Shown piece by piece: positions 16,379-41,136 of a DNA stretch of 64,000 bases (position 1 is its first letter; each line of letters begins with the position of its first letter). The position numbers and the translations under genes were made by a program. The stretch spans positions 1 through 64,000 of the IMG/VR virus record IMGVR_UViG_3300023179_000017, one strand, 5' to 3'. The DNA is from a virus. The notes beneath the pieces are model-generated. The model did not search any database, was not told the origin of the DNA, and saw only the letters and a list, made by a program, of their open reading frames with translations.

Positions 16379-19300
16379 GTGGCTGTAAAGAAAGTAAACG
16401 GGTTTTCCGCTCCTTATCGAAGTGCGACCTTCCAAGCTGAAAGTAACAGCTTAGTTGGACGTAATGGCGTTATTGCCATGAGTGGAACAGTAAGCTCTTC
16501 GGGGGGTGTCGTCACCATCCCAGCTTTTACGGCGATTCAGCAGGGGCTTATCTATTCAAAAGACACAGCTACTACACTAAACATTCCGCCCACCCTGACC
16601 GCTCCTTATTATGTTACTGTCACCGCCCCAACTCCGATTAATACCGATGACTTAATTTTTAGCTTTGCACGAACCCCAAACGACATCACTAACACGGAAG
16701 TTATCTTAGGCGAGTGGGACGGGGTTGAGTGGAGAAACCTAGACAAGGTTTCAATTGATGGGACCATCCTCGATAAAGAATCCGATCACGTTAACCTTTC
16801 TTTTGTTGGTCCAAGAAGCGGTCTTATTACTTCGGTGGTCGGTGGAAACTATCGAAACACCCCAGGCTTTTTAGTTGATAAAAAGGGACACAGCACAGAG
16901 CTTAGCTCGAACGCCATTCTTCCGATTCCTCCAAACGATGTGGATTTTGAGCGTGTCGATAGAATCATTTACCGAAGGCCCAGCGACTCCGTAAACCGGA
17001 TTGGGACGAGAAGGTTTCAATTAGGATGTGCCTATACTTCAGGTGACCCAACTCTTTACGATACGGTTCTTACCTCTACCACTTTAGTTAATCAAAACCC
17101 AAAAGTTTTAGTTGATAGCATCAATAGCGCTCATATGTTCTACGCTCAAGGGTACGGAGCTAGCTTCTCCATAATGTACCAAAAGTATGCAGCGAACAGA
17201 ACAACCAATCTGGTAGCACCCCTTTCAATCGTCACGGCGACTACTCCGAACTTTAGCGTTGCTATTGATAGTAGCAATAACCTCTACGTGGTCTACATCC
17301 AAGACCAAAACGTAAAGTGGGTAAAGACAAACAATGAAGGGTTAATCCTAGCTGGGCCCATCACGATTGATAGCAGGACTACTCCTTGCGACAATCCTCA
17401 AATCGTTATCGACCCACAGAACTTTAAAACGTATATCGTTTATCAGTCTTTATTAAACCCATCAAACAACCAGCTATTTTTTACTACGAGAAGTTTGACG
17501 GGGGCTCAGATAACTCCTGATGTGCGACTTACAAATAATTCAAGTAACCTCATAAACCCCAGCATCTGTATCAATGACGACTTGATGCTCTATGTGGCTT
17601 ACGAGGACAACACTGCAGGGCAGATTTATTACACGGTTTTAAATGATGTGGGAGAAGAATTAGAAGCCCCACAAAGTATTTCAGGTAGCACTTCTAGCGA
17701 ATCGTTTGGAACGCTTTCTCATCAAGCAAGTAAGCCCACAATTCAAGTCGCAGATAACCGAGAGCTCTTTGTTATGTTCTTACAGAAAAAGAGCGCAAAC
17801 TTGACTGGGGTTTCGATTTACCATGAAGGCGCAGCCTATCAAGTAAACCTTCTTAGCCAATCAGAGAACATTTTAAATTACGCAGCTAGAGTCGATTCTC
17901 TGATGAACGATATCCACATCTCTTACGTTCAAGCCTCAAGAGTGGACTACGCGATTGTCGAAGCAGGGGCCAAAGTCCAAAACTGGCAACTTAGCACTTC
18001 AGGTGGTTTTTCAATTGCTTTAGCTAAAGATACTTGTGGAGCAAATGTCCACGTGTGGTCAAGTCCCCTTGCTGGTACTTATAGCCCAATCGGGGCTCTT
18101 CAAACGATTCGACATATTGGCCCAGTGGCGATTGCGGGAGTTTTAAATCCTCTAGTTCTTGGAGCGAATGAGTTTTCACTCTTAGTTGCTGGCCTTACTT
18201 ACACTCCGGTTGTGGGAGATCAGGTTACTATCGCTGGTTCCACTAAAGGAAATAACGGAGCGAAAGTTGTTACTAGGGTGACTTTAAAATCTATCCTAAC
18301 TCCTAACGACACTTATGTCGTTCAAGTGGATAGTAGTTTTGCAGCGGTAGAATCGCCATGTGTTGCCGTGGTCGGACAATTTGCACAGCCCAACGGCAAC
18401 TCAACAAGTTTTGTAAAGTCGGTCGCAAACACCAATGAGGCAAGAGCTCTTAGAACAGAAGAACTCTCAACCGATATAATCCTGTCTCGTTTATCGGTTC
18501 CTGGACCTATTATTTTAAATTACATTCCGATCACAGGCTTTGGAACAAACAGCGACCTCTTTGGGATGTACGGCAATATCAATGTCGATTGGTCAGCGAC
18601 CATGGCAAACGCTCTTACCATGTCGGCAGGTCTTTCTATTGTTGATTTAACGAAGAACTTAATTTACACGGTCACAGGTGGGACATTCCCCATGAATGAG
18701 GGGGATGCAATCTATGTTGTATTAAATGGGGTCAATACCACCATCTCCCCACAAGTTTGCCCGATTCAAAATCTACCCTATGACCAGCCCATTCAGGTCT
18801 TAGGCTTTGTAAAGCTTACAGAATTTAATCCCCATCTATTCTCAGTAGCTGGGATGGGTAACTTAGATGTCGGCGAAGCGATTGTGTTAGGTCAAGACTT
18901 GACCACCGTATTAAGAGCACGCCTTGGAATTACAGGGGAAAGTACCTATCAGCCATACACCTCAACCACCCAGATATCGGCTGGCGATAACTACCCCTCA
19001 GCAATTAGTAAATTAGATCAAGCCCTTTACACCATCATGACGGACCTTCCCAAAGAAGAGTACGTTTTGGTCACAGACCCCGGCGGGCAAACTGTTTTTC
19101 AAGCGCCTACAATAACTTGGAATTCCAGTAATTTAATCCAAGACGTGGAAGTTTACGTCAACGGTCTTAGACAGACCTTAGATACTGCTGGCGGAAACAA
19201 TGAGGACTTTTATAAAATATCCGATACACAGATACAATTTTCTAAAGTTATTCCCAAGAACGCTCGTGTTACATTTAGAACAGAGCGAACAGGTGGTGGG

Positions 19301-19486
19301 GTCAGTGGCATTAATGCGATTGATCTAACCAACATCACGGTGAATCCACAGCCCTTATTAAATGGCACATTTGGAGTAGGAAGTAGCAGCAAAGGATGGA
19401 ACTCACTCTATTTGACGGATGTGATTACGGGAACGATTTATAAGTTAATTATGTCCAACGGTGTGCTACAGGTGGTGCCGGCATGA
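16379..19486 (+). CDS. Large tail fibre with beta-propeller-like middle
   Basis: 1035 residues from GTG 16379. The N-terminal 200 residues are beta-rich and adaptor-like. The region about 240-560 has repeated strands of the type 'P.I.ID..N..YVVY.Q' (for example FSVAIDSSNNLYVVYIQD, PQIVIDPQNFKTYIVYQS), which fits a beta-propeller. A later part (about 870-1035) resembles fibre-tip domains: YPSAISKLDQAL, then VEVYVNGLRQTLD.. and QPLLNGTFGVGSSSKGW ending LIMSNGVLQVVP. It could bind a host glycan or protein. The stop overlaps the next ATG by ATGA. Propeller and tip calls are from repeat pattern only. Confidence 0.6.
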   Translation: MAVKKVNGFSAPYRSATFQAESNSLVGRNGVIAMSGTVSSSGGVVTIPAFTAIQQGLIYSKDTATTLNIPPTLTAPYYVTVTAPTPINTDDLIFSFARTPNDITNTEVILGEWDGVEWRNLDKVSIDGTILDKESDHVNLSFVGPRSGLITSVVGGNYRNTPGFLVDKKGHSTELSSNAILPIPPNDVDFERVDRIIYRRPSDSVNRIGTRRFQLGCAYTSGDPTLYDTVLTSTTLVNQNPKVLVDSINSAHMFYAQGYGASFSIMYQKYAANRTTNLVAPLSIVTATTPNFSVAIDSSNNLYVVYIQDQNVKWVKTNNEGLILAGPITIDSRTTPCDNPQIVIDPQNFKTYIVYQSLLNPSNNQLFFTTRSLTGAQITPDVRLTNNSSNLINPSICINDDLMLYVAYEDNTAGQIYYTVLNDVGEELEAPQSISGSTSSESFGTLSHQASKPTIQVADNRELFVMFLQKKSANLTGVSIYHEGAAYQVNLLSQSENILNYAARVDSLMNDIHISYVQASRVDYAIVEAGAKVQNWQLSTSGGFSIALAKDTCGANVHVWSSPLAGTYSPIGALQTIRHIGPVAIAGVLNPLVLGANEFSLLVAGLTYTPVVGDQVTIAGSTKGNNGAKVVTRVTLKSILTPNDTYVVQVDSSFAAVESPCVAVVGQFAQPNGNSTSFVKSVANTNEARALRTEELSTDIILSRLSVPGPIILNYIPITGFGTNSDLFGMYGNINVDWSATMANALTMSAGLSIVDLTKNLIYTVTGGTFPMNEGDAIYVVLNGVNTTISPQVCPIQNLPYDQPIQVLGFVKLTEFNPHLFSVAGMGNLDVGEAIVLGQDLTTVLRARLGITGESTYQPYTSTTQISAGDNYPSAISKLDQALYTIMTDLPKEEYVLVTDPGGQTVFQAPTITWNSSNLIQDVEVYVNGLRQTLDTAGGNNEDFYKISDTQIQFSKVIPKNARVTFRTERTGGGVSGINAIDLTNITVNPQPLLNGTFGVGSSSKGWNSLYLTDVITGTIYKLIMSNGVLQVVPA

Positions 19487-20037
19487 CACAGCCAGTAAAA
19501 GGAAAAGCGTTTGTTTTAGATCCAGCCACTCCTTCGGAAATTCCGAATGGGTCGGTGTTTATTGATTCGACAAACTTAAATCAGCTTTCCTTAAAAGATA
19601 CATCAGGAAATGTTTCTGTGATTGGAGCTGGTATTAACCAAAACCTTTTTGTGAAACAAATGCAGGCGGGCGGATCATTTGGAATAAACCAACCACTATC
19701 AAAACGACCAGATGGTCGAGTGGTTCTTGCCGATTCGGATGGGGCCAATACCCAACAGCTTATCGGCTACTCACTCCAGATATCTCCTGGCAATAACGCT
19801 TTAGTAAATGTGCTCTTAGTAGGCGCGAACATTCTCGGGGCCGTGAATGGGCTAGGATTTGCCCCAGGTGACGATGTCTATATTAGCGAGACAGGAGGAT
19901 ATACGAACAATGTATCTTCCTTTAGCGGGGACAACGACAGCATCGTCAAAGTTGGAATCGCCGATTGTTCAGCAGGGGTGTCAAGCTCTGTGGCGACTGA
20001 TCTGGTAGTGTTCCCAGAAGTAATCGCTAAACCTTAA
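19483..20037 (+). CDS. Small fibre-associated beta-rich protein
   Basis: 184 residues starting by ATGA overlap with the long fibre. The N-terminus (GKAFVLDPATPSEIPNGSVFIDS) reads as an attachment segment with short beta strands, and the second half contains GLGFAPGDDVYISETGGYTN, a turn-rich strand motif used in fibre knobs and collar-like domains. No catalytic residues seen. The tight coupling to the fibre upstream and the fibre downstream (13-base gap with GGAGAAAG ribosome site) suggests a fibre accessory or tip protein. Function not otherwise recognised. Confidence 0.55.
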   Translation: MTQPVKGKAFVLDPATPSEIPNGSVFIDSTNLNQLSLKDTSGNVSVIGAGINQNLFVKQMQAGGSFGINQPLSKRPDGRVVLADSDGANTQQLIGYSLQISPGNNALVNVLLVGANILGAVNGLGFAPGDDVYISETGGYTNNVSSFSGDNDSIVKVGIADCSAGVSSSVATDLVVFPEVIAKP

Positions 20038-25491: not shown

Positions 25492-28400
25492 ATGTCTTTT
25501 ATAAAAAATACCGATGATTTTTTTGAGGGGCTTAGTAATAAATTTTTTACAAATGAGCGCGTTAAAAGCGCGGTTGAATCTGATTTAAACTCGTTAAGCG
25601 GTTCTATTACTGGCGAACAAGCCGCACGTCAATCAGATGTGTCAGGGCTTGATTCGAGACTTGATATTATCGAAGGGCCGAGTGGACAAGAGGGGTCAAT
25701 TGCAAAGGCATTAGTTGATGCCAAGTCTTACACTGATCAAGAAATTTCTGCTCTTGTGGGATCTGCTCCTGAAATTTTAGATACCCTTCAAGAACTATCC
25801 GAAGCTCTCTCTGGTGATGCAAGCTTTGCTCAAACTATCGCAGGTCAGATTAGCTCCTTAAGTGGTGCAATCGGAAGCGAAAGTGGAGCACGAGAAGCCG
25901 CTATCACTGGTCTTGACGCACGATTGGATATTATCGAAGGTCCAAGTGGACAAGCCGGATCAATTGAGAAGGCTCTGGCCGATGCAAAGTCTTACGCTGA
26001 TACTGGGCTTGCTGGAAAAGTAGACGTTACTGTCAACTATGATATCCGGCCTGGTATTTATAGTGGCGGTAGCAAAAGCGCAAACTTCCAGATTGATTTT
26101 GCAAACGGACCGACTCAAAAATTTACTCTGCAATCTAACGTCACGGTCACATTTGCAAATCCAGTAGCTGGCGGTATTTATACTTTACAACTAGTTCAAG
26201 ACGGAACTGGTAGCAGACAAATTACATGGCCTCAAATTACTTGGGCTAATGGTTCTGCACCACACTTGTCATCTGCTGGTAAAGTTGACTTCATTCAAAT
26301 GTGGTATGACGGCACCACCTATTATGGTGACTACCAACTAGCTGACGTTACGTTTGCTACAACAGCTGCATTGTCAGCTGAAGCAAGCGGACTTGATGCT
26401 CGTTTAGATTTGTTGGAAGCTGACCCGACTACCAAGAGTTATGTAGACGAAGCTATCTCCGGTGAACAATCTGCAAGAGCTGCTGATGTCTCAGGACTTG
26501 ATGCACGAATCGACGCGCTTGAAGCAGATCCTACTACGAAGGCGTATGTAGACGGTGTTGCTTCTGGTCTCGATGCAAGACTCGATTCTTTAGAAGCTGA
26601 CCCAACTACTAAAGCATACGTAGATGGTGCAGTCTCTGGTGAGCAGTCCGCCCGTCAATCGGCAGACCAAGCTCTTTCTGGAGCCATCACTGGCGAGATT
26701 GCTGCTCGTGAAGCGGCAGTTTCTGGTCTTGATTCCAGAATCGATGCTCTTGAAGCCGATCCTACTACTAAAGCATATGTAGACGGTGTTGCTTCCGGAC
26801 TTGATGCGAGATTGGATTCTCTCGAAGCTGACCCTGTTACAAAAGCTTATGTTGATGGTCAAGCTTCTGGTTTAGATGCAAGACTCGATGTCATCGAGGG
26901 ACCAAGTGGACAAGCCGGATCGATTGCTAAAGCGTTAGTAGACGCTAAAGCTTACACCGATCAGGAAGTCTCGGCTCTTGTAAATTCTGCACCTGAAGTT
27001 CTTAACACTTTAAAAGAGTTGGCAGATGCCCTCTCTGGTGATGCAAGTTTTGCATCGACCATTGCAGGACAAATCGGCTCTTTGAGTGGCGCTATCAGCA
27101 CTGAGATTGGAAACCGCCAATCGGATGTTTCAGGTCTTGATGCAAGACTAGACGCTCTCGAAGCTGACCCGACTACCAAGTCTTATGTCGACGGACAAGT
27201 ATCTGGGCTCGATTCACGAATTGATTCGTTGGAATTCGACTCAGTAACTAAAGCCTACGTCGACGGAGCTATCTCCGGAGAACAAGCCGCTCGTGTAGCG
27301 GATGTTTCCGGTTTAGATGCTCGTTTGGATGCCCTAGAAGCTGATCCTACTACAAAAGCATATGTAGATGGCGCAGTCTCTGGCGAACAAACACGGGCTC
27401 AGGGAGTTGAGCAATCGCTTAGCGGCGCAATCACTGGGGAACAAGCAGCTAGAGAAGCTGCAGTCTCCGGTCTTGATGCTCGCTTAGATGCTCTTGAGTC
27501 TGATCCAACTACGAAAGCGTATGTAGACGGTCAGGTATCAGGACTCGATTCCCGTATCGATGCTCTTGAAGCAGATCCGGTAACTAAAGCGTATGTAGAC
27601 GGAGCTATCTCTGGTGAGCAGTCAGCTCGTCAAGCAGACGTCTCTGGACTGGATGCTCGCTTAGATGCTCTCGAAGCAGATCCTACTACGAAGTCTTACG
27701 TCGACGGAGCTATCTCTGGTGAGCAATCCGCTCGCCAAGCAGATGTCTCAGGTCTTGATGCAAGACTTGATTCCTTGGAAGCTGACCCAGTAACCAAGTC
27801 ATACGTAGATGGACAGGCTTCGGGTCTCGATGCAAGACTCGATGTCATCGAAGGGCCAAGCGGACAAGCCGGATCTATTGCTAAAGCATTAGTTGATGCT
27901 AAAGCATATACCGATCAAGAAGTCTCAGCTCTGGTTGACTCTGCACCAGAAGTGCTAAACACATTGAAAGAATTGGCAGATGCCCTTTCTGGAGATGCGC
28001 ATTTTGCATCGACCGTTGCAGGACAGATTGGTTCCTTAAGTGGGGCGATTAGTTCTGAAATCGGAAACCGACAATCGGATGTCTCAGGTCTCGATGCAAG
28101 ACTCGATGCACTTGAAGCTGATCCGACTACTAAGGCATATGTTGACGGTGTTGCTTCAGGACTTGATGCGAGATTGGATTCGCTTGAAGCTGATCCGACT
28201 ACTAAAGCATACGTAGATGGACAGGTCTCCGGACTCGATTCCAGAATCGATGCTCTTGAAGGTGTCACTGGAATGGCAACGGAAGCTTATGTCGATGCCG
28301 AGGTACTTGAACAAGCGAAGTTCTTCGTTTCTGGTCAAGTAAGCTCGTTCTCTTCGAACACAAGCATCCAGTTCGGAACTTCGATGAGCCCTGGAACGCA

Positions 28401-28653
28401 CTTTAACATGATGCTTGCTATGGTTGATTGTTCAGGCGGTACAGTTACCATGACGCTTCCTTCAGCTTCGGCTGCAGGATCGGAAGGTAGACGCTTGAAA
28501 TTCAAAGACATGGGCAACGCGTCAATGAGCGGCTATGTAAGAGTTAGCGCTCAGGCGGGACAGACCATCGACGGCGCAGCATACTTCGATATGAAGGCTC
28601 CTTTTGAGTCTATCGAAGTTTACTGTGACGGAGATGAGTGGTTCATACTCTAA
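25492..28653 (+). CDS. Long coiled-coil tail fibre B
   Basis: 1053 residues, paralogue of fibre A: N-terminus FIKNTDDFFEGLSNKFFTNE, then about fourteen YVDG-type repeats (SGLDARLDALEADPTTKAYV), three ALVDAK.YTDQE units with E(I/V)L(D/N)TL(Q/K)EL, and a shared C-terminal tip (TIDGAAYFDMKAPFESIEVY). At about residues 175-285 it has an inserted beta domain (KVDVTVNYDIRPG to YYGDYQL) that is also found alone in the protein at 35970. Unlike fibre A, it lacks the tandem ERSRDN domains; the shaft runs almost to the tip. A terminator follows at 28662. Confidence 0.8.
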   Translation: MSFIKNTDDFFEGLSNKFFTNERVKSAVESDLNSLSGSITGEQAARQSDVSGLDSRLDIIEGPSGQEGSIAKALVDAKSYTDQEISALVGSAPEILDTLQELSEALSGDASFAQTIAGQISSLSGAIGSESGAREAAITGLDARLDIIEGPSGQAGSIEKALADAKSYADTGLAGKVDVTVNYDIRPGIYSGGSKSANFQIDFANGPTQKFTLQSNVTVTFANPVAGGIYTLQLVQDGTGSRQITWPQITWANGSAPHLSSAGKVDFIQMWYDGTTYYGDYQLADVTFATTAALSAEASGLDARLDLLEADPTTKSYVDEAISGEQSARAADVSGLDARIDALEADPTTKAYVDGVASGLDARLDSLEADPTTKAYVDGAVSGEQSARQSADQALSGAITGEIAAREAAVSGLDSRIDALEADPTTKAYVDGVASGLDARLDSLEADPVTKAYVDGQASGLDARLDVIEGPSGQAGSIAKALVDAKAYTDQEVSALVNSAPEVLNTLKELADALSGDASFASTIAGQIGSLSGAISTEIGNRQSDVSGLDARLDALEADPTTKSYVDGQVSGLDSRIDSLEFDSVTKAYVDGAISGEQAARVADVSGLDARLDALEADPTTKAYVDGAVSGEQTRAQGVEQSLSGAITGEQAAREAAVSGLDARLDALESDPTTKAYVDGQVSGLDSRIDALEADPVTKAYVDGAISGEQSARQADVSGLDARLDALEADPTTKSYVDGAISGEQSARQADVSGLDARLDSLEADPVTKSYVDGQASGLDARLDVIEGPSGQAGSIAKALVDAKAYTDQEVSALVDSAPEVLNTLKELADALSGDAHFASTVAGQIGSLSGAISSEIGNRQSDVSGLDARLDALEADPTTKAYVDGVASGLDARLDSLEADPTTKAYVDGQVSGLDSRIDALEGVTGMATEAYVDAEVLEQAKFFVSGQVSSFSSNTSIQFGTSMSPGTHFNMMLAMVDCSGGTVTMTLPSASAAGSEGRRLKFKDMGNASMSGYVRVSAQAGQTIDGAAYFDMKAPFESIEVYCDGDEWFIL
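27823..28124 (+). repeat. 302-base near-identical copy shared with fibre A (copy 2)
   Basis: Partner of 23071-23372. The two blocks encode the DARLDVIEGPSGQAGSIAKA to LDALEAD portion of the shaft. The only mismatch seen is at 27918. The edges are abrupt: on the left TCA GGT versus TCG GGT, on the right GATCCAGTT versus GATCCGACT. This marks the limits of the shared tract. Confidence 0.9.
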
Positions 28654-28661
28654 TATAAATG

Positions 28662-28695
28662 AGTGGCCCTCTACAAAAGTGGGGGGCCACTTTTT
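28662..28695 (+). terminator. Rho-independent terminator after fibre B
   Basis: AGTGGCCC pairs with GGGCCACT around a 14-base loop, with TTTTT at 28691-28695. It separates fibre B from the promoter and lipoprotein gene that follow, so the latter has its own transcript. Confidence 0.9.
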
Positions 28696-28727: not shown

Positions 28728-28736
28728 TGATATAAT
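28728..28736 (+). promoter_or_regulatory. Extended -10 promoter for His/Cys-rich lipoprotein
   Basis: TGATATAAT (TG at 28728-28729, TATAAT at 28731-28736) lies just after the terminator. No convincing -35 is present 16-18 bases upstream. Transcription would begin near 28743, giving a 15-base leader containing GGAGAAG before ATG 28758. The same 9-mer occurs before rmlB and before the minus-strand glycosyltransferase. Confidence 0.65.
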
Positions 28737-28757
28737 TACCTAATCTTGGAGAAGACC

Positions 28758-28925
28758 ATGAAAAAATTATTTTTAGCTTTGATCTTAGCTTTCGCAGTAA
28801 CAGGGTGTAACCCAATGGCCCACCACGAGTGCTGCCACCACGAACACCACCACTGCTGTGAGCACCATTGCAAGTGCGAACATCACCACTGCAAGCACCA
28901 CCACTGTGAGTGCGAACACCACTAA
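28758..28925 (+). CDS. Tiny His/Cys-rich lipoprotein, likely metal-binding
   Basis: A 55-residue protein with ribosome site GGAGAAG. Residues 1-16 are a lipoprotein signal (MKKLFLALILAFAVTG) and Cys17 follows in a lipobox (AVTGC). Of the 38 residues after Cys17, 17 are His and 9 are Cys, in short blocks such as HHEHHHCCEHHCKC and CEHH. This composition predicts strong binding of Zn, Cu, Ni or similar ions at the membrane face where it is anchored. It is a single gene with its own extended -10 promoter, flanked by a terminator and the giant adhesin gene. I know no family for it. Roles could be metal sequestration, protection from host metal stress, or superinfection exclusion; all are inference. 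Confidence 0.85.
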   Translation: MKKLFLALILAFAVTGCNPMAHHECCHHEHHHCCEHHCKCEHHHCKHHHCECEHH

Positions 28926-28963
28926 GTAATTAGTTTTTATACCTTTTTATTTAAGGGATCAGA

Positions 28964-31900
28964 ATGAAACGTAGACTAGTTCTTATTAAAAAGGCTGCAA
29001 GTGGTAATTTAAGTCCTGTAATTACCATCTCTGCTCAACCCACAAATCAATCAACATCAGACGGAAATGCAAGCTTCTCAGTAACGGCAAGCGTTACGGA
29101 GGGGGCAACACTTTCGTATCAGTGGCAACGAAGTACCGACGCAGGAACAACTTTCTCGGCTTTGTCTGGAGAGACTTCGAATAGCTTATCCCTAAGTTCA
29201 ATTACGGTTTTGTCTGATCAATATCAATATCGTTGCGTAGTATCTGCTACGGGCGGTGCTGCGAGTGTCAATTCGTCTTCAGCTACTCTTTCGGTTGTTC
29301 CAGCTATTACGGTTTCTGCTCAACCACAAGCTTCGACAACATCGGAAGCATTAGGCACATCTTCCTTCTCAGTTACAGCAAGCGCATCGGTTGGTGGAAC
29401 TATATCTTATCAGTGGCAACGAAGTACAGATGGGACTAGCTTTTCAAACCTAAGTGGAGAAACCAATAGTTCTTTAAGTTTGAGCAGTCTCACATACGCT
29501 ACCAACAATCAAAACCAATATCGTTGCGTGGTGTCTGGCAATTACAACGCATCTTCTGTCACTTCAAGCGCAGCAGTTTTGACTGTTTATGATTCGACAA
29601 CTGCGATGGCCACATGGACATCGGCAACACTAAGCGGTTCTTATGGTGGTCTTACTTATGCTAAAGAACTGGGATTGTTTGTAGCAGTCGGGGGCAGTAC
29701 CACTAGGGCCAGCGTATCAAATGATGGAACGAATTGGAGTGATACAACTGGAGCAGTAGTAAATCTACAGACAGTAGCATGGTCTCCTGAGCTTGGAATG
29801 TTCGCAGCAGTGGGAAACATTGGTGGGATTGCTACTTCTTATGATGGTTACAACTGGACACAGAGAACATCTCCAACAACAAACAATTTAAAAAGGGTTC
29901 GTTGGATTCCAGAAAAAGGATTTTTTCTAGCCTGTTCTACAGCCGTTTCCGCTTCTAATAAATTTGTTAAATCCACAGATGGTATTACTTGGACTGGATT
30001 TAGTGGGCCATCAACCGAAGCCGTTTATGACTTTGACTATGCTCCAAGTTTAAATTCATTTTTCGCTCTTGGTTACAGTTCAAATAAGATTTTTACATCT
30101 TCAGATGGTGAAACTTGGACAACAAGTGCATCCACAATGCCTAGTTCTGGAACTTGGTATGCAATTAAATGGTCTTCTCAAAAATCCTTATTTGTCGCTG
30201 GGGCGTGGGATGGTGGATATTTAGCAACATCTCCAGATGGTGCGAATTGGACAACTAGAACCAAAGTAGACACAACCCAGTCTGGTGTTACGGCTATTGA
30301 TTATTCACCAGAGTTGGGCTACTTCGCAATGAGCATAAATGGCAATGCTGGCTATAATAGAGTTCACATATCACCAGATGGCATCAACTGGACTGGAAAA
30401 ATATCTTCTAGTGCAGCTAACTGGGATGTTTGCTGGTCTTCTGATGTGGGAAAATTTGTCTGTATCGGTGGTAGCGGGTTCACTGCAACATCGACCAGTG
30501 TTTACAGTGCATCCAATGTCATTAAGCTTACTGCTTTCACATTACCATCTACATACAGAAACGATACTGCAAGCTCATCTTATATTGCGACAGCATCAAT
30601 AGCTTCTGGCAGCATCTCTTATCAATGGGAAAAGAGTACAAATTCTGGTGTAAGTTTTTCAAGCGTAGCTGGTGCAACGGCTGGAACGCTAACCCTTACC
30701 CAAACAGAACGAAATGCTGCGGTCGATGGATCTCATTTTTACAGATTAAAAATGACATCTGCGACAGCCAAGTACAGTCCAGTCTATGCTGGATATTTTG
30801 TACCATCAGCAAATGATGCAATTTACTATGTCAGTAATTGGTCTTCGTCTTCCCTAACCAACCAAAACTGGTATTCTATCTGTTATGCCAAAGAGCTTGG
30901 TCTTTTTGTTGCTGTATCTTCTACTGGTACAAACAGAATTGCAGTTTCAAACAATGGAACAACTTGGACAGAGCTAACAGGACAAGCTGCATCGGCCTAC
31001 GCACTTAACTATGTCGCATGGTCGCCAACATTAGGAATGTTTGTAGCCGTGGGATCTTCTGGTTCAATTTTCACTTCTTATGATGGGTATAACTGGACAC
31101 AGAGAACTTCACCCACTACCTCAAATCAGCTTTATACTGTCAAATGGATTGCAGAAAAAAGCTTCTTTTTGATTACATCAAATAGTGCTGGGACGGCTAA
31201 TAAGATTTTAAAATCCACAGATGGTATTACTTGGACTGGGTATTCTTCCCTAAGCACTACCGCTCTTTCGGACTTTGATTATTCACCATCTCTTGATTTG
31301 ATAGTTGTGCAAGTTTATGGTGCCAGCAATTTTATCACTTCTTCGGATGGTCAAAACTGGTCATCTGTTTCGGTAGGATCGGGTACAAATAGAAACTGGG
31401 ACGGGATAAAATGGTCTGCCTCGCAAGGCAAGTTCGTGGCGACTTCATCAAATAGCAATTCCGTTGCAACATCGACAGATGGAACTAACTGGACGATAGT
31501 TTCTACTGGTGTTTCGCTAAACAAAATTGATTATTCTCCAGAGTTTAATTTATATGTTTCAAACACTGTAAATACGGGAGGCTCGACAAAAGTTTGGAGT
31601 TCTCCAGATGGTGTTACTTGGACTGCCCGTGGCCCCTCTCTTGGCACTTCAGTAACATTTAGAAACATTCTGTGGGTTCCTGATTATAAAAAGTTTTATG
31701 CCATATCACAAGACGGGGCGCAGTTAACTTCTGCCACTGTTTCAGATCCAGAAAATGTTATTAAATTGTCTTCGTTCTCTCTGCCTACAATCACATATAG
31801 AAATAATACTGCGAATACAACTTATGTAACTACTTCAACAATCGCTTCTGGTTCAATTTCTTATCAGTGGCAGTTGAGTACAAACTCAGGATCAACTTTC

Positions 31901-34900
31901 TCAGATGTTGCTGGAGCTACGAGCAGCACCCTAACGCTTTCTCAGGCTGATAGAAATGCAGCCCTAGACGCAGGTAATTATGTCTACAGATTAAAAATGA
32001 CATCTGCCACAGCTAAGTATAGTCCAGTTTATGCTGGATATTACGATGCTAGGGTTCAAGAAAATAATATTTATGCGCTAAATAATTACAACTTAGGATC
32101 TATTTCTGACTCAAGTTGGGCTGGGCTTGTTTGGTCTTCTAAGCGTGGCGTTTTTGTAACCGCATCTTTTAGTGGTAACGACAAAATCGCAGTATCAGCA
32201 AACGGCCTGAATTGGCAGTATGTTAATACCGACACCTCTGGGGCTACTATAACCCCAGGAAACGCAGAATTGGTATATTCAGAAGAAAAAGATCTGTTTG
32301 TGCAATCTGGGCCATCTAGTTATGTTTATACTTCAACAGACGGTTTGAATTGGACTCAAAGAGCATCTTCAACAACCCAAACATTAGCGAGCGGTGCCTA
32401 CTCCCCTTCCTTGGGGCTTTTTGTTTATGTATCGAGAACTGCTACGTCTAACGTAGTGGTAACATCGTCTAATGGAACTACTTGGTCAAACTCCTCTACT
32501 GGGGTTTCACAAGCCATGTGGGGTGTCGCATGGTCTCCCACATTAGGATTATTCGCAGCAGTAGGGGACAATGGGACAATCATCACTTCAACTAATGGAA
32601 CTTCTTGGACAACAAGAACCTCTCCCAACACGAACGCATACAAGTCTATCGCATGGTCTCCCACATTAGGAATGTTCGCAGCAGTATCAAATGGTGGAAC
32701 CAATAGGGTCATGACATCTACGGATGGCATCACTTGGACTGCAAGGACTTCAGCAGCAGAAACCTACGCATGGAGAAGAATAATTTGGGTTTCCGATCTG
32801 GGGATGTTTGTCGCAGGGTCAGAGTCAACTGGAGTGAGTTGTGTTATGTACTCTGCCAATGGCACATCTTGGACTTTAAGCGCAATCAACAACAGATCGA
32901 CCACTTCTTCAGTGACTGGGTTGGCTTGGTCTTCAGAGCTAAAACGCTTGGGTCAAGTTGGTTTTTATGGAACAGGAGTTAGAAACTACGCAACTGCTGA
33001 TATTTACACCAACAAAACAACCGTTGCAGGATTTACTGCGCTACCAAAATTAACAACCACAAACTACCTGTCTTCGACAGCAGATGTCACCCTGTCTTCA
33101 ACTGCACTTGTTTCGGACGGAAGCTCCCCAAGCTATCAGTGGCAACGAAGTTCTGACAACGGATCTACTTGGGCTGATTTGTCTGAAAAAACATCTGCAA
33201 ACCTTGTTTTAACTGATGCCGAATCAGAAACCGCTTCAACAAGTAATTACAAGTATCGAGTTAAAGTTTTAAACGGCACAAACAACTTAATAAGTACCAC
33301 ATTTTCTGTTGTCGTACAGTCTGATGGCGTTTATGCCGTCAACAACTGGACGGTTTCATCACCAGGAGATCGCTACTGGTGTGGTGTCGCATGGTCTCCT
33401 AAGTTAGGCTTATTCGCAGCAGTGTCTTATGCAGATGCCTCTTCGGCCACGACTTTACAAAGAGTTAGGATTGGAATTTCAAAAGACGGGGTTAATTGGA
33501 CTTACCCAACCTACTGGTCTACTAGCGGATTTTTTCCAAACGACATTTTGTGGGTTGGTGGTTCTGTAAATATGTTTGTAGTTGTTGGCCAAGTTTGTAT
33601 TTTAACCTCTCCAGACGGTATCAACTGGACTTCAAGAAAAAACACAAATATGTTGATTTGGGAAACAGCCGCATATTCTTCTACCCAAGGAATTGTTGCC
33701 GTTTTTAATGGCACCTATGCCGCAAACGCTGTTTTAAAAAGCACCAACGGTATTACTTGGACGACAAGTGCTGGGCTTGGTTTTACGCAAGCTATGTGGG
33801 GTATCGCATGGTCTCCTTCTCTTAGCTTGTTTGTAATGGTTGGAGCGGGTGGAAGAATTATGTCGTCACCAGATGGTACGACATGGACTCAAAGAACTAG
33901 CAATACGACCAACACTCTAACTTCGATTGCTTGGTCTCCAGAACTAAGTCTTTTTGTAGCTGTTGCAAACACTGGAACGAGCCGAGTGGTCACATCACCA
34001 GACGGTATCAACTGGACGACAAGGACTTCGGCAGCAGAAACCTACTCATGGAGAAAAGTAATTTGGGTTTCTGATCTGGGATTGTTTATAGCTGGAGCAC
34101 AAACCACAGTAGCAAATAACTTAATGTATTCTTCAGATGGAATTAACTGGAGTATTGCATCAATGTCACCATCGGCTACGGCTGCTTGGAGAGTGCCGAT
34201 GGCATGGTCTCCAGAGTTAAAACGACTTTTAGTTCTTTCTCAAAGCACCACACAGAACGCAGTTGGAACTGCGGCGTTAAGTGCTGACATATTTGCTGGC
34301 AAGACAAGCTATATGTCAATCACGGCTGCTCCTTCAAACTACGAAACATGGCTTGATAACACTGCAAGCACCACGCTTACTGCGGCAGCATCGGTTTCGA
34401 CGGGGGCTACACCAAGCTATCAGTGGCAACGAAGTTCTGACAATGGAACGAATTGGAGTGACTTAGCAGGACAAACTTCAACAAGCCTTGTTTTAACTGA
34501 TGCAGAAACAGAAACGGCTTCCACAAATAGTTATAAGTATCGTTTCAGTGCATCATCGGCTGGAATTTCGAACTCACCAGTAGTAAGTGATAAGGTTTCT
34601 CTAACAGTAAGAAGCACTACAAAAGATTACTGTGTTGAAAATTGGACGATGTATTCGGCTGCCAATAGCAATCAATTAAGATCTGTTGTTTGGGCTCCGA
34701 GCTTGTCACTCTTTTGTGCAATTGGGGATAGTGGAACTAATAACAGAGCGCAAACATCTCCAGATGGTATCACTTGGACTGTGAGAACTACTCCGTCTGC
34801 TGCAAACAATAACTGGCAAGGTTTGGCCTGGTCTCCAGAGCTAAGTCTTTTTGTAGCTGTTGCTGGATCTGGAACCAATAACAGAGTCATGACATCTCCA

Positions 34901-35818
34901 GACGGTATTACTTGGACTGCAAGGACTTCGGCAGCAGACAATAACTGGCAAAGCGTATGCTGGTCTAAAGAAAAAACTTTATTTGTAGCTGTTGCTGGAT
35001 CTGGAACCAATAACAGAGTCATGACATCTCCAGACGGTATTGCTTGGACTGCAAGGACTTCGGCACAAGACAATAATTGGACATCGGTGTGTTGGTCGCC
35101 AACCGCCAATGGTACTGGTCTTTTTGTGGCAGTATCAAATGGTGGAACCAATAGGGTTATGACATCCCCTGATGGTATCAACTGGACAGTAAGAACATCG
35201 TCTATCACCACATATTGCGTGTGCTGGTCGGCAGAAGTGGGATTGTTTGTGGCTGCTGGATTTAATAGCATGGCCACATCTCCAGACGGTATTAACTGGA
35301 CTTTAAGAAATCCAGCAGCGATCGCTGCGGGGGCTTTCGTATCTGTCTGCTGGTCAAAAGAACTTGGGCTCTTTTGTGCCTTCCCATCTGCAACGTCAAA
35401 TGGAAAAGTGGTCACATCACCAGACGGTATCAACTGGACTGCAAGAATGTCACAACAAGATGTATTTTTCCAATCACAGTTTTTTGGAAATGGTATCGCA
35501 TGGTCTCCAGGCGTAGGTCGTTTCGTCCAAGTTGGTTTGTATGCTAACATGAGCGCAATAGTTTCAAACGTCTATATGGCAACACCCGCTTTCAGTTTAG
35601 CTGCTGGCACCTATACAGGAACTCAGTCAGTTACACTTAGCGTGGCAAATTCTGGGGCAACAATTTACTACACAACCGACGGTAGTACGCCAACAACGTC
35701 GTCTACGGTATATTCGGGGGCTATTTCTGTACCAAGCAGCAGAACCATAAAAGCGATTGCAGTTAAATCGGGATACCCAGATTCAACTATCGCCTCGGCT
35801 GCTTATACAATTAACTAG
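28964..35818 (+). CDS. Giant adhesin-like protein: six Ig-like, five Asp-box propellers, chitobiase-type C-terminus
   Basis: 2284 residues. Two Ig-like domains (YQWQRSTDAGTTF near 29117; YQWQRSTDGTSF near 29410) start the protein. Then five propeller modules alternate with four more Ig-like domains (YQW motifs near 30619, 31861, 33136, 34420). Each propeller has about seven blades of the form 'W.P.LGLFVAV....TS.DG.NWT', where S-x-D-G-x-x-W is an Asp-box. The final about 75 residues (GATIYYTTDGSTPTTSSTVY) look like the chitobiase/hexosaminidase C-terminal domain. There is no signal peptide, so a virion adhesin or fibre is more likely than a secreted protein. No catalytic sialidase Arg triad was sought beyond the Asp-boxes. 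It likely binds or processes host surface sugar. Start ATG 28964 has AAGGG upstream. Confidence 0.75.
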   Translation: MKRRLVLIKKAASGNLSPVITISAQPTNQSTSDGNASFSVTASVTEGATLSYQWQRSTDAGTTFSALSGETSNSLSLSSITVLSDQYQYRCVVSATGGAASVNSSSATLSVVPAITVSAQPQASTTSEALGTSSFSVTASASVGGTISYQWQRSTDGTSFSNLSGETNSSLSLSSLTYATNNQNQYRCVVSGNYNASSVTSSAAVLTVYDSTTAMATWTSATLSGSYGGLTYAKELGLFVAVGGSTTRASVSNDGTNWSDTTGAVVNLQTVAWSPELGMFAAVGNIGGIATSYDGYNWTQRTSPTTNNLKRVRWIPEKGFFLACSTAVSASNKFVKSTDGITWTGFSGPSTEAVYDFDYAPSLNSFFALGYSSNKIFTSSDGETWTTSASTMPSSGTWYAIKWSSQKSLFVAGAWDGGYLATSPDGANWTTRTKVDTTQSGVTAIDYSPELGYFAMSINGNAGYNRVHISPDGINWTGKISSSAANWDVCWSSDVGKFVCIGGSGFTATSTSVYSASNVIKLTAFTLPSTYRNDTASSSYIATASIASGSISYQWEKSTNSGVSFSSVAGATAGTLTLTQTERNAAVDGSHFYRLKMTSATAKYSPVYAGYFVPSANDAIYYVSNWSSSSLTNQNWYSICYAKELGLFVAVSSTGTNRIAVSNNGTTWTELTGQAASAYALNYVAWSPTLGMFVAVGSSGSIFTSYDGYNWTQRTSPTTSNQLYTVKWIAEKSFFLITSNSAGTANKILKSTDGITWTGYSSLSTTALSDFDYSPSLDLIVVQVYGASNFITSSDGQNWSSVSVGSGTNRNWDGIKWSASQGKFVATSSNSNSVATSTDGTNWTIVSTGVSLNKIDYSPEFNLYVSNTVNTGGSTKVWSSPDGVTWTARGPSLGTSVTFRNILWVPDYKKFYAISQDGAQLTSATVSDPENVIKLSSFSLPTITYRNNTANTTYVTTSTIASGSISYQWQLSTNSGSTFSDVAGATSSTLTLSQADRNAALDAGNYVYRLKMTSATAKYSPVYAGYYDARVQENNIYALNNYNLGSISDSSWAGLVWSSKRGVFVTASFSGNDKIAVSANGLNWQYVNTDTSGATITPGNAELVYSEEKDLFVQSGPSSYVYTSTDGLNWTQRASSTTQTLASGAYSPSLGLFVYVSRTATSNVVVTSSNGTTWSNSSTGVSQAMWGVAWSPTLGLFAAVGDNGTIITSTNGTSWTTRTSPNTNAYKSIAWSPTLGMFAAVSNGGTNRVMTSTDGITWTARTSAAETYAWRRIIWVSDLGMFVAGSESTGVSCVMYSANGTSWTLSAINNRSTTSSVTGLAWSSELKRLGQVGFYGTGVRNYATADIYTNKTTVAGFTALPKLTTTNYLSSTADVTLSSTALVSDGSSPSYQWQRSSDNGSTWADLSEKTSANLVLTDAESETASTSNYKYRVKVLNGTNNLISTTFSVVVQSDGVYAVNNWTVSSPGDRYWCGVAWSPKLGLFAAVSYADASSATTLQRVRIGISKDGVNWTYPTYWSTSGFFPNDILWVGGSVNMFVVVGQVCILTSPDGINWTSRKNTNMLIWETAAYSSTQGIVAVFNGTYAANAVLKSTNGITWTTSAGLGFTQAMWGIAWSPSLSLFVMVGAGGRIMSSPDGTTWTQRTSNTTNTLTSIAWSPELSLFVAVANTGTSRVVTSPDGINWTTRTSAAETYSWRKVIWVSDLGLFIAGAQTTVANNLMYSSDGINWSIASMSPSATAAWRVPMAWSPELKRLLVLSQSTTQNAVGTAALSADIFAGKTSYMSITAAPSNYETWLDNTASTTLTAAASVSTGATPSYQWQRSSDNGTNWSDLAGQTSTSLVLTDAETETASTNSYKYRFSASSAGISNSPVVSDKVSLTVRSTTKDYCVENWTMYSAANSNQLRSVVWAPSLSLFCAIGDSGTNNRAQTSPDGITWTVRTTPSAANNNWQGLAWSPELSLFVAVAGSGTNNRVMTSPDGITWTARTSAADNNWQSVCWSKEKTLFVAVAGSGTNNRVMTSPDGIAWTARTSAQDNNWTSVCWSPTANGTGLFVAVSNGGTNRVMTSPDGINWTVRTSSITTYCVCWSAEVGLFVAAGFNSMATSPDGINWTLRNPAAIAAGAFVSVCWSKELGLFCAFPSATSNGKVVTSPDGINWTARMSQQDVFFQSQFFGNGIAWSPGVGRFVQVGLYANMSAIVSNVYMATPAFSLAAGTYTGTQSVTLSVANSGATIYYTTDGSTPTTSSTVYSGAISVPSSRTIKAIAVKSGYPDSTIASAAYTIN
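34850..35082 (+). repeat. 132-base-period blade repeat in the last propeller
   Basis: The about 100 bases from 34850 recur from 34982 almost unchanged, with the main difference attact/attgct in the DGI.W motif. This is a recent duplication of one 44-codon blade. Similar but older blade copies occur throughout 29600-35500, for example 32729-32820 versus 34009-34098. Confidence 0.8.
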
Positions 35819-35870: not shown

Positions 35871-35914
35871 AGATACAATCCTCTCGTCAAGACCTGATCG
35901 ATCTTGGCGAGGGG
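35871..35914 (+). promoter_or_regulatory. Promoter AGATACAAT with 13-bp hairpin at the start site
   Basis: AGATACAAT (-10 hexamer TACAAT at 35874-35879) matches the promoter at 44642-44650. Directly after it, 35880-35892 pairs with 35902-35914 over 13 base pairs (two G-U) around a 9-base loop, so the 5' end of the message would fold at once. There is no U-tract, so it is more likely a stabilising or regulatory 5' structure than a terminator. It leads into the gene at 35970. Confidence 0.5.
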
Positions 35915-35969
35915 GCTGGGAAATTAAACAAACAGTATCAAAACCGATAGATGGGCATAAGGAATCATT

Positions 35970-36510: not shown

Positions 36511-37212
36511 ATGAAATACTTAATGGCCCTACTTATAGGGACTTTTGCGCTTTCTCCTGAATATCAAAAAGGCTACGAAGAAATCCACGGCACTGGCAAA
36601 TATACAAGGGCGCAGCTTGAAGAGGCGGAGCCTAAAATCAGAATGGCAGAACAAAATCTTCAAACGCTAGAAGACGTCGCTATTCAGTCGAACCTTGCTC
36701 TACGAACCATCTTCTCGGTTGCAGTTAAAAACCTACACCGAAAAGGATATACACGAACAGCAAGAGAAATCGAATCTGGCTGGGAAGAACGAGACGGCGA
36801 GATAGTCAGACTTGCCTATAGAGGTGAAAGAAACATCGGGGATTTTGAACCGCTATCGAAATGGCTTGCTGACGCATACGATAAAATCGAATCGAAGTTA
36901 GGATATCAACTATGCCTAGCGTTACGCCTGTCAGATATCAAAACCATCAACTTCGGTCTTGTCGTTGTATTTAGGCCATGTAAGTATGGCGAGGAAGAAT
37001 TTAAGAAGCATTTTATTCATGATGAAAAATACCGAGGGCTTGCTCCGGTAGTCGCCTACTGGACGACTATTGTGGCTTGTTCGTTTGGTACTTACGGGAT
37101 TGGATATTTCTTTATCTGCTCTCCGATAGGAATGATAGTGGAGCTTGGAGTAGATAAAAAAATAGCGCCGTATCTGGCCCCTAAAATTTATAATCTTGCT
37201 TGTGAGGAATAA
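36511..37212 (+). CDS. Exported or membrane protein of unknown function
   Basis: 233 residues. The N-terminus MKYLMALLIGTFALS is a plausible cleavable signal peptide. A charged helical region follows (about 20-110), then a hydrophobic stretch near residues 180-215 (VVAYWTTIVACSFGTYGIGYFFICSP). Ribosome site AAAGGTAAAA upstream. An exported phage protein beside the adhesin cluster could be an envelope-modifying or exclusion protein. No known domain recognised. It starts a four-gene string of small genes ending at 37912. Confidence 0.6.
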   Translation: MKYLMALLIGTFALSPEYQKGYEEIHGTGKYTRAQLEEAEPKIRMAEQNLQTLEDVAIQSNLALRTIFSVAVKNLHRKGYTRTAREIESGWEERDGEIVRLAYRGERNIGDFEPLSKWLADAYDKIESKLGYQLCLALRLSDIKTINFGLVVVFRPCKYGEEEFKKHFIHDEKYRGLAPVVAYWTTIVACSFGTYGIGYFFICSPIGMIVELGVDKKIAPYLAPKIYNLACEE

Positions 37213-37950: not shown

Positions 37951-38928
37951 ATGAAGTACATGGTCACCGGCGGTCACGGCTTTATTGGATCAAACCTTTG
38001 TAGGCTCCTTCTAGAACAAAATAAAGATATCGTTGTTGTCGATTCCCTCACCTACGCCTCAAACCAAGCCTACTTAAAGAATTGGGCCAAAGAGAATAAT
38101 AAAAAGTTTGAAGAAGAAATCCTAGATATCAGAGACCACGTTTCTGTCGCAAGGATGATGCAAAAACATAAGCCCGATGTCATTTTTCATTTAGCCGCTG
38201 AAAGCCATGTTTGCCGAAGCATCTCTGGGCCCAAAGACTTTGTCACAACAAACGTTCTAGGCACCTTTCATTTGATTGAAGAGTTTCGGCAGCTTTGGGG
38301 AGATAACGCTTCTAAAAAGTTTGTTCACGTTTCAACTGATGAGGTCTACGGGGAGCTTGAGCTAAACGAGCCGCCTTTTTGTGAATATACTCCAATCAAA
38401 CCTAGAAGCCCCTATTCCGCCACAAAAGCCGGAAGCGATCACATCGTCCAGTCTTACTTTCACACCTACGGTGTTTCGACCATCATTACGAATTGCTCGA
38501 ACAACTTTGGTCCCAACCAGCATAAAGAAAAACTAATTCCTGCAACCATTCAACGCCTTCATAGAAATAAACCTGTAAGGCTTTATGGCAACGGCCAGAA
38601 TATCCGCGACTGGCTCTGGGTGGAAGACCATGCAAGAGGCCTTATGCTTCTTGCTGAAAAAGGAACGCCTGGTCAAAAGTATTGCATTGGGGGTGAGTGT
38701 GAAAAAACTAACCTCCAAATTATCAACGCTGTCTTTGACGCTATGGCTACAAGATTTGGAAAATTAGAACTTACTATTGAATTTACAAACGACAGGCCGA
38801 CAGATGATAAAAGATATGCTATTAATTGCGACAGACTAAAAGCACTGGGCTGGGCCCCGTCCAGCAATTTAAAAGAAAATCTCTTGAAGACAGTCGATTA
38901 TTATTTGGTAGAATTTAAACGGGGTTGA
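37951..38928 (+). CDS. rmlB: dTDP-glucose 4,6-dehydratase
   Basis: 325 residues, the usual family length. The NAD-binding TGGHGFIG is at residues 6-13, the catalytic Thr-Asp-Glu at 129-131 (STDEVYG), and the Tyr-x3-Lys pair at Y155/K159 (PYSATKAG). NNFGP.QH.EKLIP and IRDWLWVEDHARG are also present. It converts dTDP-glucose to dTDP-4-keto-6-deoxyglucose. Differences from typical RmlB are Cys instead of Asp in HVCRS and DRPTDD for DRPGHD, which may affect substrate preference. It heads a rmlB-rmlC-degT string. RmlA and RmlD are not in the window, so dTDP-glucose is presumably taken from the host. Confidence 0.9.
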   Translation: MKYMVTGGHGFIGSNLCRLLLEQNKDIVVVDSLTYASNQAYLKNWAKENNKKFEEEILDIRDHVSVARMMQKHKPDVIFHLAAESHVCRSISGPKDFVTTNVLGTFHLIEEFRQLWGDNASKKFVHVSTDEVYGELELNEPPFCEYTPIKPRSPYSATKAGSDHIVQSYFHTYGVSTIITNCSNNFGPNQHKEKLIPATIQRLHRNKPVRLYGNGQNIRDWLWVEDHARGLMLLAEKGTPGQKYCIGGECEKTNLQIINAVFDAMATRFGKLELTIEFTNDRPTDDKRYAINCDRLKALGWAPSSNLKENLLKTVDYYLVEFKRG

Positions 38929-38976
38929 GTCAGCGCTTCATTTAACATTAACCGTGTTAAGAGAGAGCAAAGAACT

Positions 38977-39507
38977 ATGGAGTGCCGTGATACAACCCCA
39001 ATCATCAACTGCTACACACTCAAGAGAGAAGTCTACAACGACCCAAGAGGGCACTTCTCAGAGCTCTTTCGAGCTTGTGACTTCGATGAGAAGTTCGTCC
39101 AAAGAAACGTCTCCCTATCTAAAAAGAATGTTCTAAGAGGGATGCACACCATGACTAGGCAACCCCAAGGAAAGCTTGTGACCTGTGTCTATGGCAGTGT
39201 GTGGGATGTGGTTTTTGACGCAAGGCCCATGAGCCCCACCTTTATGAAAGGATATGCAATCGAGCTAGATCACAAGAAGCTAAACGCTATCTACGTGCCG
39301 CCAGGCTGCCTACACGGATTTTTCACGCTTTCAGATATCGCAGTCGTGGAGTATGATTGCACTACTTATTACCAACAAAAATTTGACGGGGGTGTTAAAT
39401 GGACTTCTTCGGAAATCAAAAAACTTTTTCCACCGAGTATCAATCCGGTTTTGAGTTCTAAAGATGATGGGCTTCCATCTCTTCAGGAATTTTTAAGATC
39501 AAAATGA
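38977..39507 (+). CDS. rmlC: dTDP-4-keto-6-deoxyglucose 3,5-epimerase, RmlC-type
   Basis: 176 residues. Catalytic His57 is in LRGMH, Lys66 in QGKLV, Tyr131/132 in the TTYY segment, and the partner Asp163 in LSSKD, all matching RmlC rather than the RGxHAH pattern of 3,4-ketoisomerases. The cupin barrel motifs PTFMKGYAIEL and VPPGCLHGF are present. Product would be dTDP-4-keto-L-rhamnose (or a mono-epimer). Its stop overlaps the next ATG by ATGA. There is no RmlD-like reductase after it; an aminotransferase takes that place. Confidence 0.85.
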   Translation: MECRDTTPIINCYTLKREVYNDPRGHFSELFRACDFDEKFVQRNVSLSKKNVLRGMHTMTRQPQGKLVTCVYGSVWDVVFDARPMSPTFMKGYAIELDHKKLNAIYVPPGCLHGFFTLSDIAVVEYDCTTYYQQKFDGGVKWTSSEIKKLFPPSINPVLSSKDDGLPSLQEFLRSK

Positions 39508-40541
39508 TACCACTTCTAAGACCAGATTTTCCAAGTCTTGATTTAGTAAACCAGTATTTTTCGTCTTGCTACGACAAGAAGATATTTACTAACTTTGGCT
39601 CCGTCTTTGATGAGTCCGTAAAACAACTTTCAAAACTAATGAACGGGGAAGCGCTTCCCTGCACTTCAGGAACGACAGCTATTCAAGCCGCTCTTTCTGT
39701 TATGTCAGCTAAAGGAAAAAGAGTCGCTATCCCAGACTACACCCACTCAGGAACGATGCTTGCTGTAATTGGCGCACAAGCTACTCCAGTTCTTTTTGCC
39801 GTCAATCCTAAAACTTGGGTCATTTCAATTGATGACTTAAAAGCAAACTTTGACCAATACGACATGGTCGTTGTGGTTTCTCCCTTTGGTTATGAAATTG
39901 ATTTCCAAGCTTTTGAAACATTATCGTATGAATTAAAAAAACCCATCGTTTACGACATGGCAGGATGCTTTGGGAGCTTCCCAGATACCATTAACCCCAG
40001 AGCTTATTCTTTTCATGCCACAAAAAACTTTGCGGTCGGTGAAGGGGGATGCCTTGTTCTTCCTGACACCAAAATGTGGGAGCACGCTAGAAAAATTATC
40101 AACTTTGGAACGAACCTAGACAGATCCCTTTTTAGTGATGTGGGCTTTAATGGAAAGGTAGATGAGCTTCGATGCGCTATTATTTTAGCTATGCTCCACG
40201 AAGAGAACTTGTCGAAAGTGTGGGCCAGGATCAAGAACAAAAAAGCAACGCTTCAGTTCTACCAAGAGCAACTAAAGGGGGTTGTACCTGAAGGAGAGAA
40301 ATACACTTCTCTTTGTGTGGTGGGCGGCGTTCCTGCTAAAGAGCTGGAAGAGCACTGCCTTAAAAACGACATCATTAGTAAATCCTACTACCCACTTCTT
40401 TCTAAGATGCCAGGTCTTGCGCACATCGAACGGGTAACTACGAGCGGCCCTGAAATGGAAAAGTGCCTTGCACTTCCGTCTGATGTTTCAATCGCGGAAG
40501 CTTACGAAGTCGTTGAGTGTATATCCGAGTATCGTCCTTAA
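39504..40541 (+). CDS. DegT/DnrJ-type sugar aminotransferase
   Basis: 345 residues. Pyridoxal-phosphate Lys174 lies in FHATKNFAVGEGG, and the ring-nitrogen Asp151 in YDMAGCFG. The early TSGTTAIQAAL motif binds phosphate. The family aminates keto-sugars on nucleotides (C3 or C4). Following RmlB and RmlC, the likely product is a dTDP-4-amino-4,6-dideoxy sugar, though C3 amination cannot be excluded from sequence. It ends tail-to-tail with the minus-strand acetyltransferase, the two stops sharing TTAA at 40538-40541. Confidence 0.85.
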   Translation: MIPLLRPDFPSLDLVNQYFSSCYDKKIFTNFGSVFDESVKQLSKLMNGEALPCTSGTTAIQAALSVMSAKGKRVAIPDYTHSGTMLAVIGAQATPVLFAVNPKTWVISIDDLKANFDQYDMVVVVSPFGYEIDFQAFETLSYELKKPIVYDMAGCFGSFPDTINPRAYSFHATKNFAVGEGGCLVLPDTKMWEHARKIINFGTNLDRSLFSDVGFNGKVDELRCAIILAMLHEENLSKVWARIKNKKATLQFYQEQLKGVVPEGEKYTSLCVVGGVPAKELEEHCLKNDIISKSYYPLLSKMPGLAHIERVTTSGPEMEKCLALPSDVSIAEAYEVVECISEYRP

Positions 40542-41086
40542 ACTAGTTCAAGAACGCCTTTTTTTCTTTCTTTCTTTTCTTCGGCAGGATTTCCCCAAGC
40601 AAACATCCAAGGAGATATCTTTTGATTAGCTCTGGTCTGGCTCATGGCCCCAAGAACCGAGCCCTCCCCAAAGTGGGTTCCCGGCATCACGCAACAGTGG
40701 GCTGTGATGTGGGAATGGTCTTCCATGACGATTGGGGCGTAATAGACATTGGTAAATTCTTTAGGGTTTTGAGGACCAATTAAGTAGTCCCCTGAGAAAT
40801 TATCAGAAGAGGAAATAAGGGTAGAACCAAAACTAATCGTGCAGTTATCGCCTATCCGAATCCCCCCGCCACAGGATAGGGTCACACGGGAGGCGATGTG
40901 GATATTGCTACCTATTTTTAAATATCCTTTTAAACAAAGTAGGATACAGCCAGCATCGATTCTAACATTACTACCTAGCTCAATCTGTTCAGCCCCCATG
41001 ACGATAACGCTTCTATCTACAAGGACTTTCTCCCCTATTCGTTTAAAACCACACAGAAAGAGTTCTTCTTTAGTTAAAAAGGCCAT
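40538..41086 (-). CDS. Left-handed-beta-helix acetyltransferase
   Basis: About 182 residues from ATG at 41086; an earlier possible start (41110) lacks a ribosome site. Hexapeptide repeats are clear: IELGSNVRIDAGC, LKIGSNIHIASRVT, IRIGDNCTISFGS, followed by IVMEDHSHITAHCCVMPG and the terminal WMFAWGNPAEE. The family O- or N-acetylates sugars; with the amino-sugar genes beside it, N-acetylation of a 4-amino- or 3-amino-deoxy sugar is likely. It is divergent from the glycosyltransferase at 41137, with only 50 bases between starts. Confidence 0.8.
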   Translation of the reverse strand: MAFLTKEELFLCGFKRIGEKVLVDRSVIVMGAEQIELGSNVRIDAGCILLCLKGYLKIGSNIHIASRVTLSCGGGIRIGDNCTISFGSTLISSSDNFSGDYLIGPQNPKEFTNVYYAPIVMEDHSHITAHCCVMPGTHFGEGSVLGAMSQTRANQKISPWMFAWGNPAEEKKERKKGVLELV

Positions 41087-41116
41087 AGGTAATCTATTTT
41101 GGTTACGCACCCTTAA

Positions 41117-41125: not shown

Positions 41126-41136
41126 ATTTAGTATAT

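Follow-up and report, generated by a model that had tools for sequence, protein, structure and literature searches.

A predicted His/Cys-rich lipoprotein encoded in the variable fibre/cargo island of a phage genome

A 55-codon gene at 28758-28925 (+) of the window, by which we mean the whole 64-kb stretch of DNA analysed, itself part of a 152,336-base virus record, encodes a predicted lipoprotein whose mature part is exceptionally rich in histidine and cysteine. Judged from its sequence, the gene is a real phage gene for a lipoprotein with a metal-ligand-rich mature part, and it is an unusual orphan with a predicted function. Signal, expression elements and setting together indicate that it is a genuine accessory (cargo) gene of the phage. 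With middling confidence, we favour a tethered metal chelator on the envelope, resembling Hpn and metallothioneins, over a receptor-masking lipoprotein.

The translation of the gene, MKKLFLALILAFAVTGCNPMAHHECCHHEHHHCCEHHCKCEHHHCKHHHCECEHH followed by a stop codon, starts with MKKLFLALILAFAVTGC and continues into a 38-residue tail. The gene and the elements around it are as follows.

25492-28653: upstream fibre gene, 1053 aa, adjoining the lipoprotein gene on its 5' side
28661..28692, + strand: intrinsic terminator of the upstream fibre gene (14-bp stem with 8 GC pairs, T-run)
28728..28736, + strand: putative extended -10 promoter element, exact sequence TGATATAAT
28748..28751, + strand: Shine-Dalgarno GGAG, 6 nt before the ATG of the lipoprotein gene
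28758..28925, + strand: lipoprotein gene, with signal peptide 1-16, predicted lipidated Cys17 and the 38-residue His/Cys-rich tail
28758..28808, + strand: signal peptide and lipobox VTG/C, matched by Pfam LPAM_1
28842..28922, + strand: tandem 36-nt (12-residue) repeat, 2.3 copies, EHHHCCEHHCKC / EHHHCKHHHCEC / EHH
28964..35818, + strand: 2284-aa fibre-like/adhesin gene, 38 nt downstream of the lipoprotein gene

Lipoproteins were recognized by an N-terminal signal with the lipobox [LVI][ASTVI][GAS]C, which in this protein reads V-T-G-C. The Pfam model for the lipoprotein lipid attachment site, LPAM_1, covers residues 1-18 at 22.8 bits against a cut-off of 20, and the residue at position +2 is Asn, not Asp. 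Lipidation and envelope localization are predicted on this basis. According to the initial annotation, a lipobox signal precedes 38 residues, 17 of them His and 9 Cys; the translation bears out both counts exactly. With Cys17 included, 27 of the 39 residues of the mature part are His or Cys (69%), the share of Cys being 26%; the remainder includes 6 Glu, 2 Lys and a single Pro. Potential ligands are arranged as CC and CxC pairs and HHHC blocks. From this composition, the mature peptide would be expected to bind metal. A compact metal-chelating patch, as initially proposed, was not recovered: the AlphaFold2 model (mean pLDDT 52.6, pTM 0.21) is ordered in the signal helix and nowhere beyond it.

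Such a composition lies far outside what the other frames of this phage or simulated sequence reach; it had been claimed to be far outside that of normal phage lipoproteins. The richest 34-residue stretch of the lipoprotein reading frame holds 26 His and Cys, compared with 11 in the next open reading frame of the 152-kb phage and a peak of 7-10 in 12 simulated first-order Markov genomes of 152 kb each. A 12-residue unit, EHHHC[CK][EH]HHC[KE]C, repeated 2.3 times, makes up much of the tail. The two full 36-nt copies differ in 6 codons, 3 of which are synonymous in the His/Cys frame, and the differences mostly preserve the ligand pattern. Among codons changed at a single base, three of four are synonymous in that frame, against an expected fraction of 0.12-0.26 (P about 0.006-0.05, depending on transition bias), a weak pointer to selection on the His/Cys frame. 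An origin of the repeat from other DNA of this phage was rejected, as the only matches were of 15 nt or less.

The gene had also been credited with its own extended -10 promoter, a good ribosome site and a preceding terminator, all of which were located (see the list above). The TGATATAAT element at 28728 has no good -35 element at 17 bp, and transcription is expected to start near 28743. Counted over both strands of the 152 kb, there are 4 exact copies of TGATATAAT and 6 of TGNTATAAT. The terminator at 28661-28692 is predicted to fold at -26.4 kcal/mol (z -6.4). Expression independent of the fibres, a further claim, stands on the upstream side, where this terminator isolates the fibre gene, but not on the downstream side. 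Because no terminator was found in the 38-nt gap (28926-28963) before the 2284-aa gene, that gene and the lipoprotein gene probably share one transcript from the 28728 promoter. After the 2284-aa gene, at about 35879-35918, there is a strong hairpin that lacks a T-run (-23.1 kcal/mol, z -4.5).

The phage encodes a contractile-tail baseplate wedge, a gpA-type terminase with an intein and a family-A DNA polymerase. Named phages are distant, Salmonella phage Arash and Vibrio phages D69, D148 and D181 showing about 30% identity, and five relatives from IMG/VR have 39-56% identity in the wedge protein. A tail backbone (window 128-20037 and 56918-63162) is common to these five and is found in order within their contigs. 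Its two parts flank a 37-kb island (about 20050-56900) that encodes fibres, an amidase and enzymes of sugar modification and is nearly without counterpart in the five relatives; their matching interval is shorter and different. The lipoprotein gene sits inside this variable fibre/cargo island and is absent from the relatives, but because the whole island is absent there, this counts neither for nor against the gene.

Other parts of the island and record were also annotated. The 2284-aa protein ends in Fn3_assoc and CHB_HEX_C_1 domains (Pfam), its N terminus appears Ig-like by eye, and its repeats match proteins of jumbo Stenotrophomonas and Xanthomonas phages, Limnohabitans phage DC31 and cyanophages. 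A sugar-modifying cassette (37951-41874) encodes a GDP-mannose dehydratase/epimerase, a dTDP-4-dehydrorhamnose 3,5-epimerase, a DegT aminotransferase and a candidate glycosyltransferase 2, the last scoring under the Pfam cut-off; the cassette could serve to change the surface of the host or to decorate virions. A further TGATATAAT element lies ahead of it, at 37910. As this element precedes both the cassette and the lipoprotein gene, transcription of two cargo units within the island seems to begin at the same kind of host-type promoter. Two island cargo genes (window 36511-37212 and 43582-44649) recur at 58-63% identity in a 104-kb viral contig (10001-10708 and 18767-19810) that is otherwise without recognized similarity over the 20 kb read. 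As this unrelated-looking contig carries two of them, genes of the island appear to be mobile among phages. Elsewhere in the record, the terminase large subunit (record 80552-83122) is interrupted by an intein with similarity to LAGLIDADG homing endonucleases, and a 1025-aa protein (record 102152-105229) gives a second intein-like and LAGLIDADG match. An AEP primase of the TOTE-conflict type adjoins an SNF2-type helicase on the minus strand (record 146233-150695), a pair that is apparently part of phage replication, and a 2511-aa open reading frame follows a portal-like gene (record 65102-72637).

No homologue of the lipoprotein was found by BLAST in phage or plasmid collections, a search in which the low-complexity filter may mask the tail; four motif scans were therefore added. 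None was found in IMG/VR, in a peptide-pattern search of 84,980 genomes, in six related viral contigs or, at E<=0.001, in about 1,150 sampled bacterial genomes, where one weak match was rejected for having an internal stop and no His/Cys-rich reading frame; in these collections, entries very close to this genome may be missing. Homologues of the giant fibre-like gene (28964-35818) had no comparable lipoprotein gene as a neighbour. Across the four motif scans of public collections, at least about 276 frames were recovered, none of those listed having a lipobox signal. This holds among the matches listed for HHHCxHHH in viral contigs and CxHHHCxHH in genomes, and for every match in complete scans of viral contigs with CxCxHHHCxH and HHHCCxHH. 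The frames listed lie mostly in Arg, Leu, Pro or Tyr contexts and are short or shadow-like. Repetitive genes rich in Thr, Ser, Ala and Val do, judging by such sequences, give rise to shadow frames rich in His and Cys.

Profile searches gave a similar picture. There was no match to a metallothionein family in Pfam (E<=1) or NCBIfam (E<=10), nor to any metal-binding family in these databases at the same thresholds or in PHROGs (E<=10). The sole PDB match was dismissed as chance (E 0.53) and an LptM match in NCBIfam (E 0.086) as reflecting the signal only. The earlier view that the protein belongs to no described family thus agrees with Pfam, NCBIfam, PHROGs and the PDB, and a literature search found no phage His/Cys-rich lipoprotein.

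In the chelator model, host RNA polymerase would transcribe the lipoprotein gene along with the downstream fibre-like gene, and the Sec and lipoprotein pathways would anchor the product in the envelope. If the host is Gram-negative, its destination would be the outer membrane, because residue +2 is Asn and not Asp. The tail would stay unfolded until it had bound several metal ions of soft or borderline character (Zn, Cu, Ni or Co), with imidazole and thiolate groups both serving as ligands. The resulting membrane-tethered sponge would lower free metal at the surface or in the periplasm of the infected cell, which would either shield the cell from metal stress or withhold metal from metal-dependent envelope processes. 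Consistent with this model are a ligand content beyond the range of this phage's other reading frames and of simulated sequence, the CC and CxC pairs and HHHC blocks, a lipobox above the Pfam cut-off, rightly placed promoter, ribosome site and terminator, a ligand pattern mostly preserved between repeat copies, a predicted structure that is disordered in the absence of metal, and parallels with Hpn and with the nickel-linked lipoprotein Hrl (see below). Against it, unloaded cysteines could form disulfides in an oxidizing periplasm, and the lack of a homologue leaves it without support from conservation. No other metal-handling gene was recognized among the phage proteins scanned. A variant in which the anchored chelator acts on envelope metal during infection, for example by starving zinc-dependent cell-wall hydrolases or metal-dependent receptors at the surface, and so brings about superinfection exclusion or lysis control, seems quite unlikely; to our knowledge, such a mechanism has not been described for a phage.

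Among the alternatives, the one that survives best is a superinfection-exclusion lipoprotein like T5 Llp, Cor or Rtp45, in which an outer-membrane protein made from a host promoter would shield the phage's own receptor, perhaps with metal ions linking it to an outer-membrane transporter that is His-rich or loaded with metal. The setting suits this idea: the small lipoprotein gene lies directly between the fibre genes at 25492-28653 and 28964-35818, whose products presumably bind the receptor, it has a host-type promoter, and its top PHROGs match is Cor (phrog_1119, E 5e-4). However, that match is to the signal peptide only; the first 21 residues joined to an unrelated tail scored the same, whereas the mature part alone gave no match. 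Membership of Cor was rejected, as there is no similarity over the mature Cor domain. The 38-residue low-complexity tail is also unlike the compact domain of Llp or Cor, and the phage has many fibres and no identified receptor. We consider receptor masking doubtful.

Alternatively, the lipoprotein may be real but its tail a simple repeat that expanded recently and plays no specific part in handling metal, the gene being neutral or decaying cargo. The 36-nt tandem repeat and the location of an orphan gene in a variable island would be expected under this explanation, but the copies have diverged mostly with their His/Cys ligands retained, and neither the frame nor the signal, promoter or ribosome site is damaged. 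We consider this explanation unlikely.

That the His/Cys reading is itself the shadow of a Thr/Ser-rich +1 frame, QGVTQWPTTSAATTNTTTAVSTIASANITTASTTTVSANTTK followed by a stop codon, we regard as very improbable. The +1 frame is open across the repeat, and same-motif frames elsewhere are short or shadow-like and, among those listed, devoid of a lipobox. However, it is open over the repeat only, with stops just upstream, has no start before an internal GTG and, matches of at most 15 nt aside, resembles no other protein or DNA sequence of the phage. The His/Cys frame, by contrast, opens with a complete lipoprotein signal behind a promoter and ribosome site, and repeat differences are partly synonymous in that frame only. 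An Rz1-like outer-membrane spanin, suggested by the shortness of the lipoprotein and by a candidate endolysin (Amidase_2, 42824-43555) that the island also encodes, is extremely unlikely and was rejected, as the tail has no proline-rich region, no inner-spanin reading frame overlaps or adjoins the gene, the amidase lies 14 kb away on the opposite strand and the full-length protein has no spanin match in PHROGs.

Small phage lipoproteins that alter the cell surface are known, as are His/Cys-rich metal-storage peptides, and we found no described combination of the two. If metal is bound at the envelope, metal availability would become a directly testable target of phage-host conflict, and the 39-residue mature peptide is simple to synthesize and assay.

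Metallothioneins are small unstructured peptides with CxC and CC thiolate motifs, and the phage protein resembles them in having such motifs in a small peptide predicted to be unstructured. They are typically cytosolic and mostly Cys, whereas the phage protein is a predicted His/Cys lipoprotein. As a small phage lipoprotein encoded beside putative receptor-binding genes, it also resembles Llp, Cor and Rtp45 (PMC9586334, PMC12685063): llp adjoins the gene for the receptor-binding protein pb5, similar lipoproteins lie downstream of gpJ in other phages (PMC9586334), and Rtp45 is only about 6 kDa in size (PMC12685063). It differs from Llp and Cor in having no domain like theirs, the Cor match being confined to the signal peptide. 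On these sequence grounds, we class the protein as a lipoprotein and not as Cor, and, because sequence homology is absent, not as Hpn or a metallothionein. A likeness in description is offered by Hrl (MG149) of Mycoplasma genitalium, a Fur-regulated histidine-rich lipoprotein linked to nickel acquisition (PMC6968530); both are His-rich lipoproteins in a metal context, but Hrl is a cellular gene with an assigned metal-responsive operator, whereas the phage protein is 55 aa long and Cys-rich too. Hpn of Helicobacter pylori is a His-rich metal (nickel) storage protein with 28 His (46.7%) and EEGCC motifs (PMC5312948). The phage protein shares no detected sequence homology with Hpn, but it is likewise small, with His making up almost half of it alongside acidic residues and paired Cys; it differs in its lipoprotein signal, larger share of Cys, 12-residue repeat and place in a phage genome.
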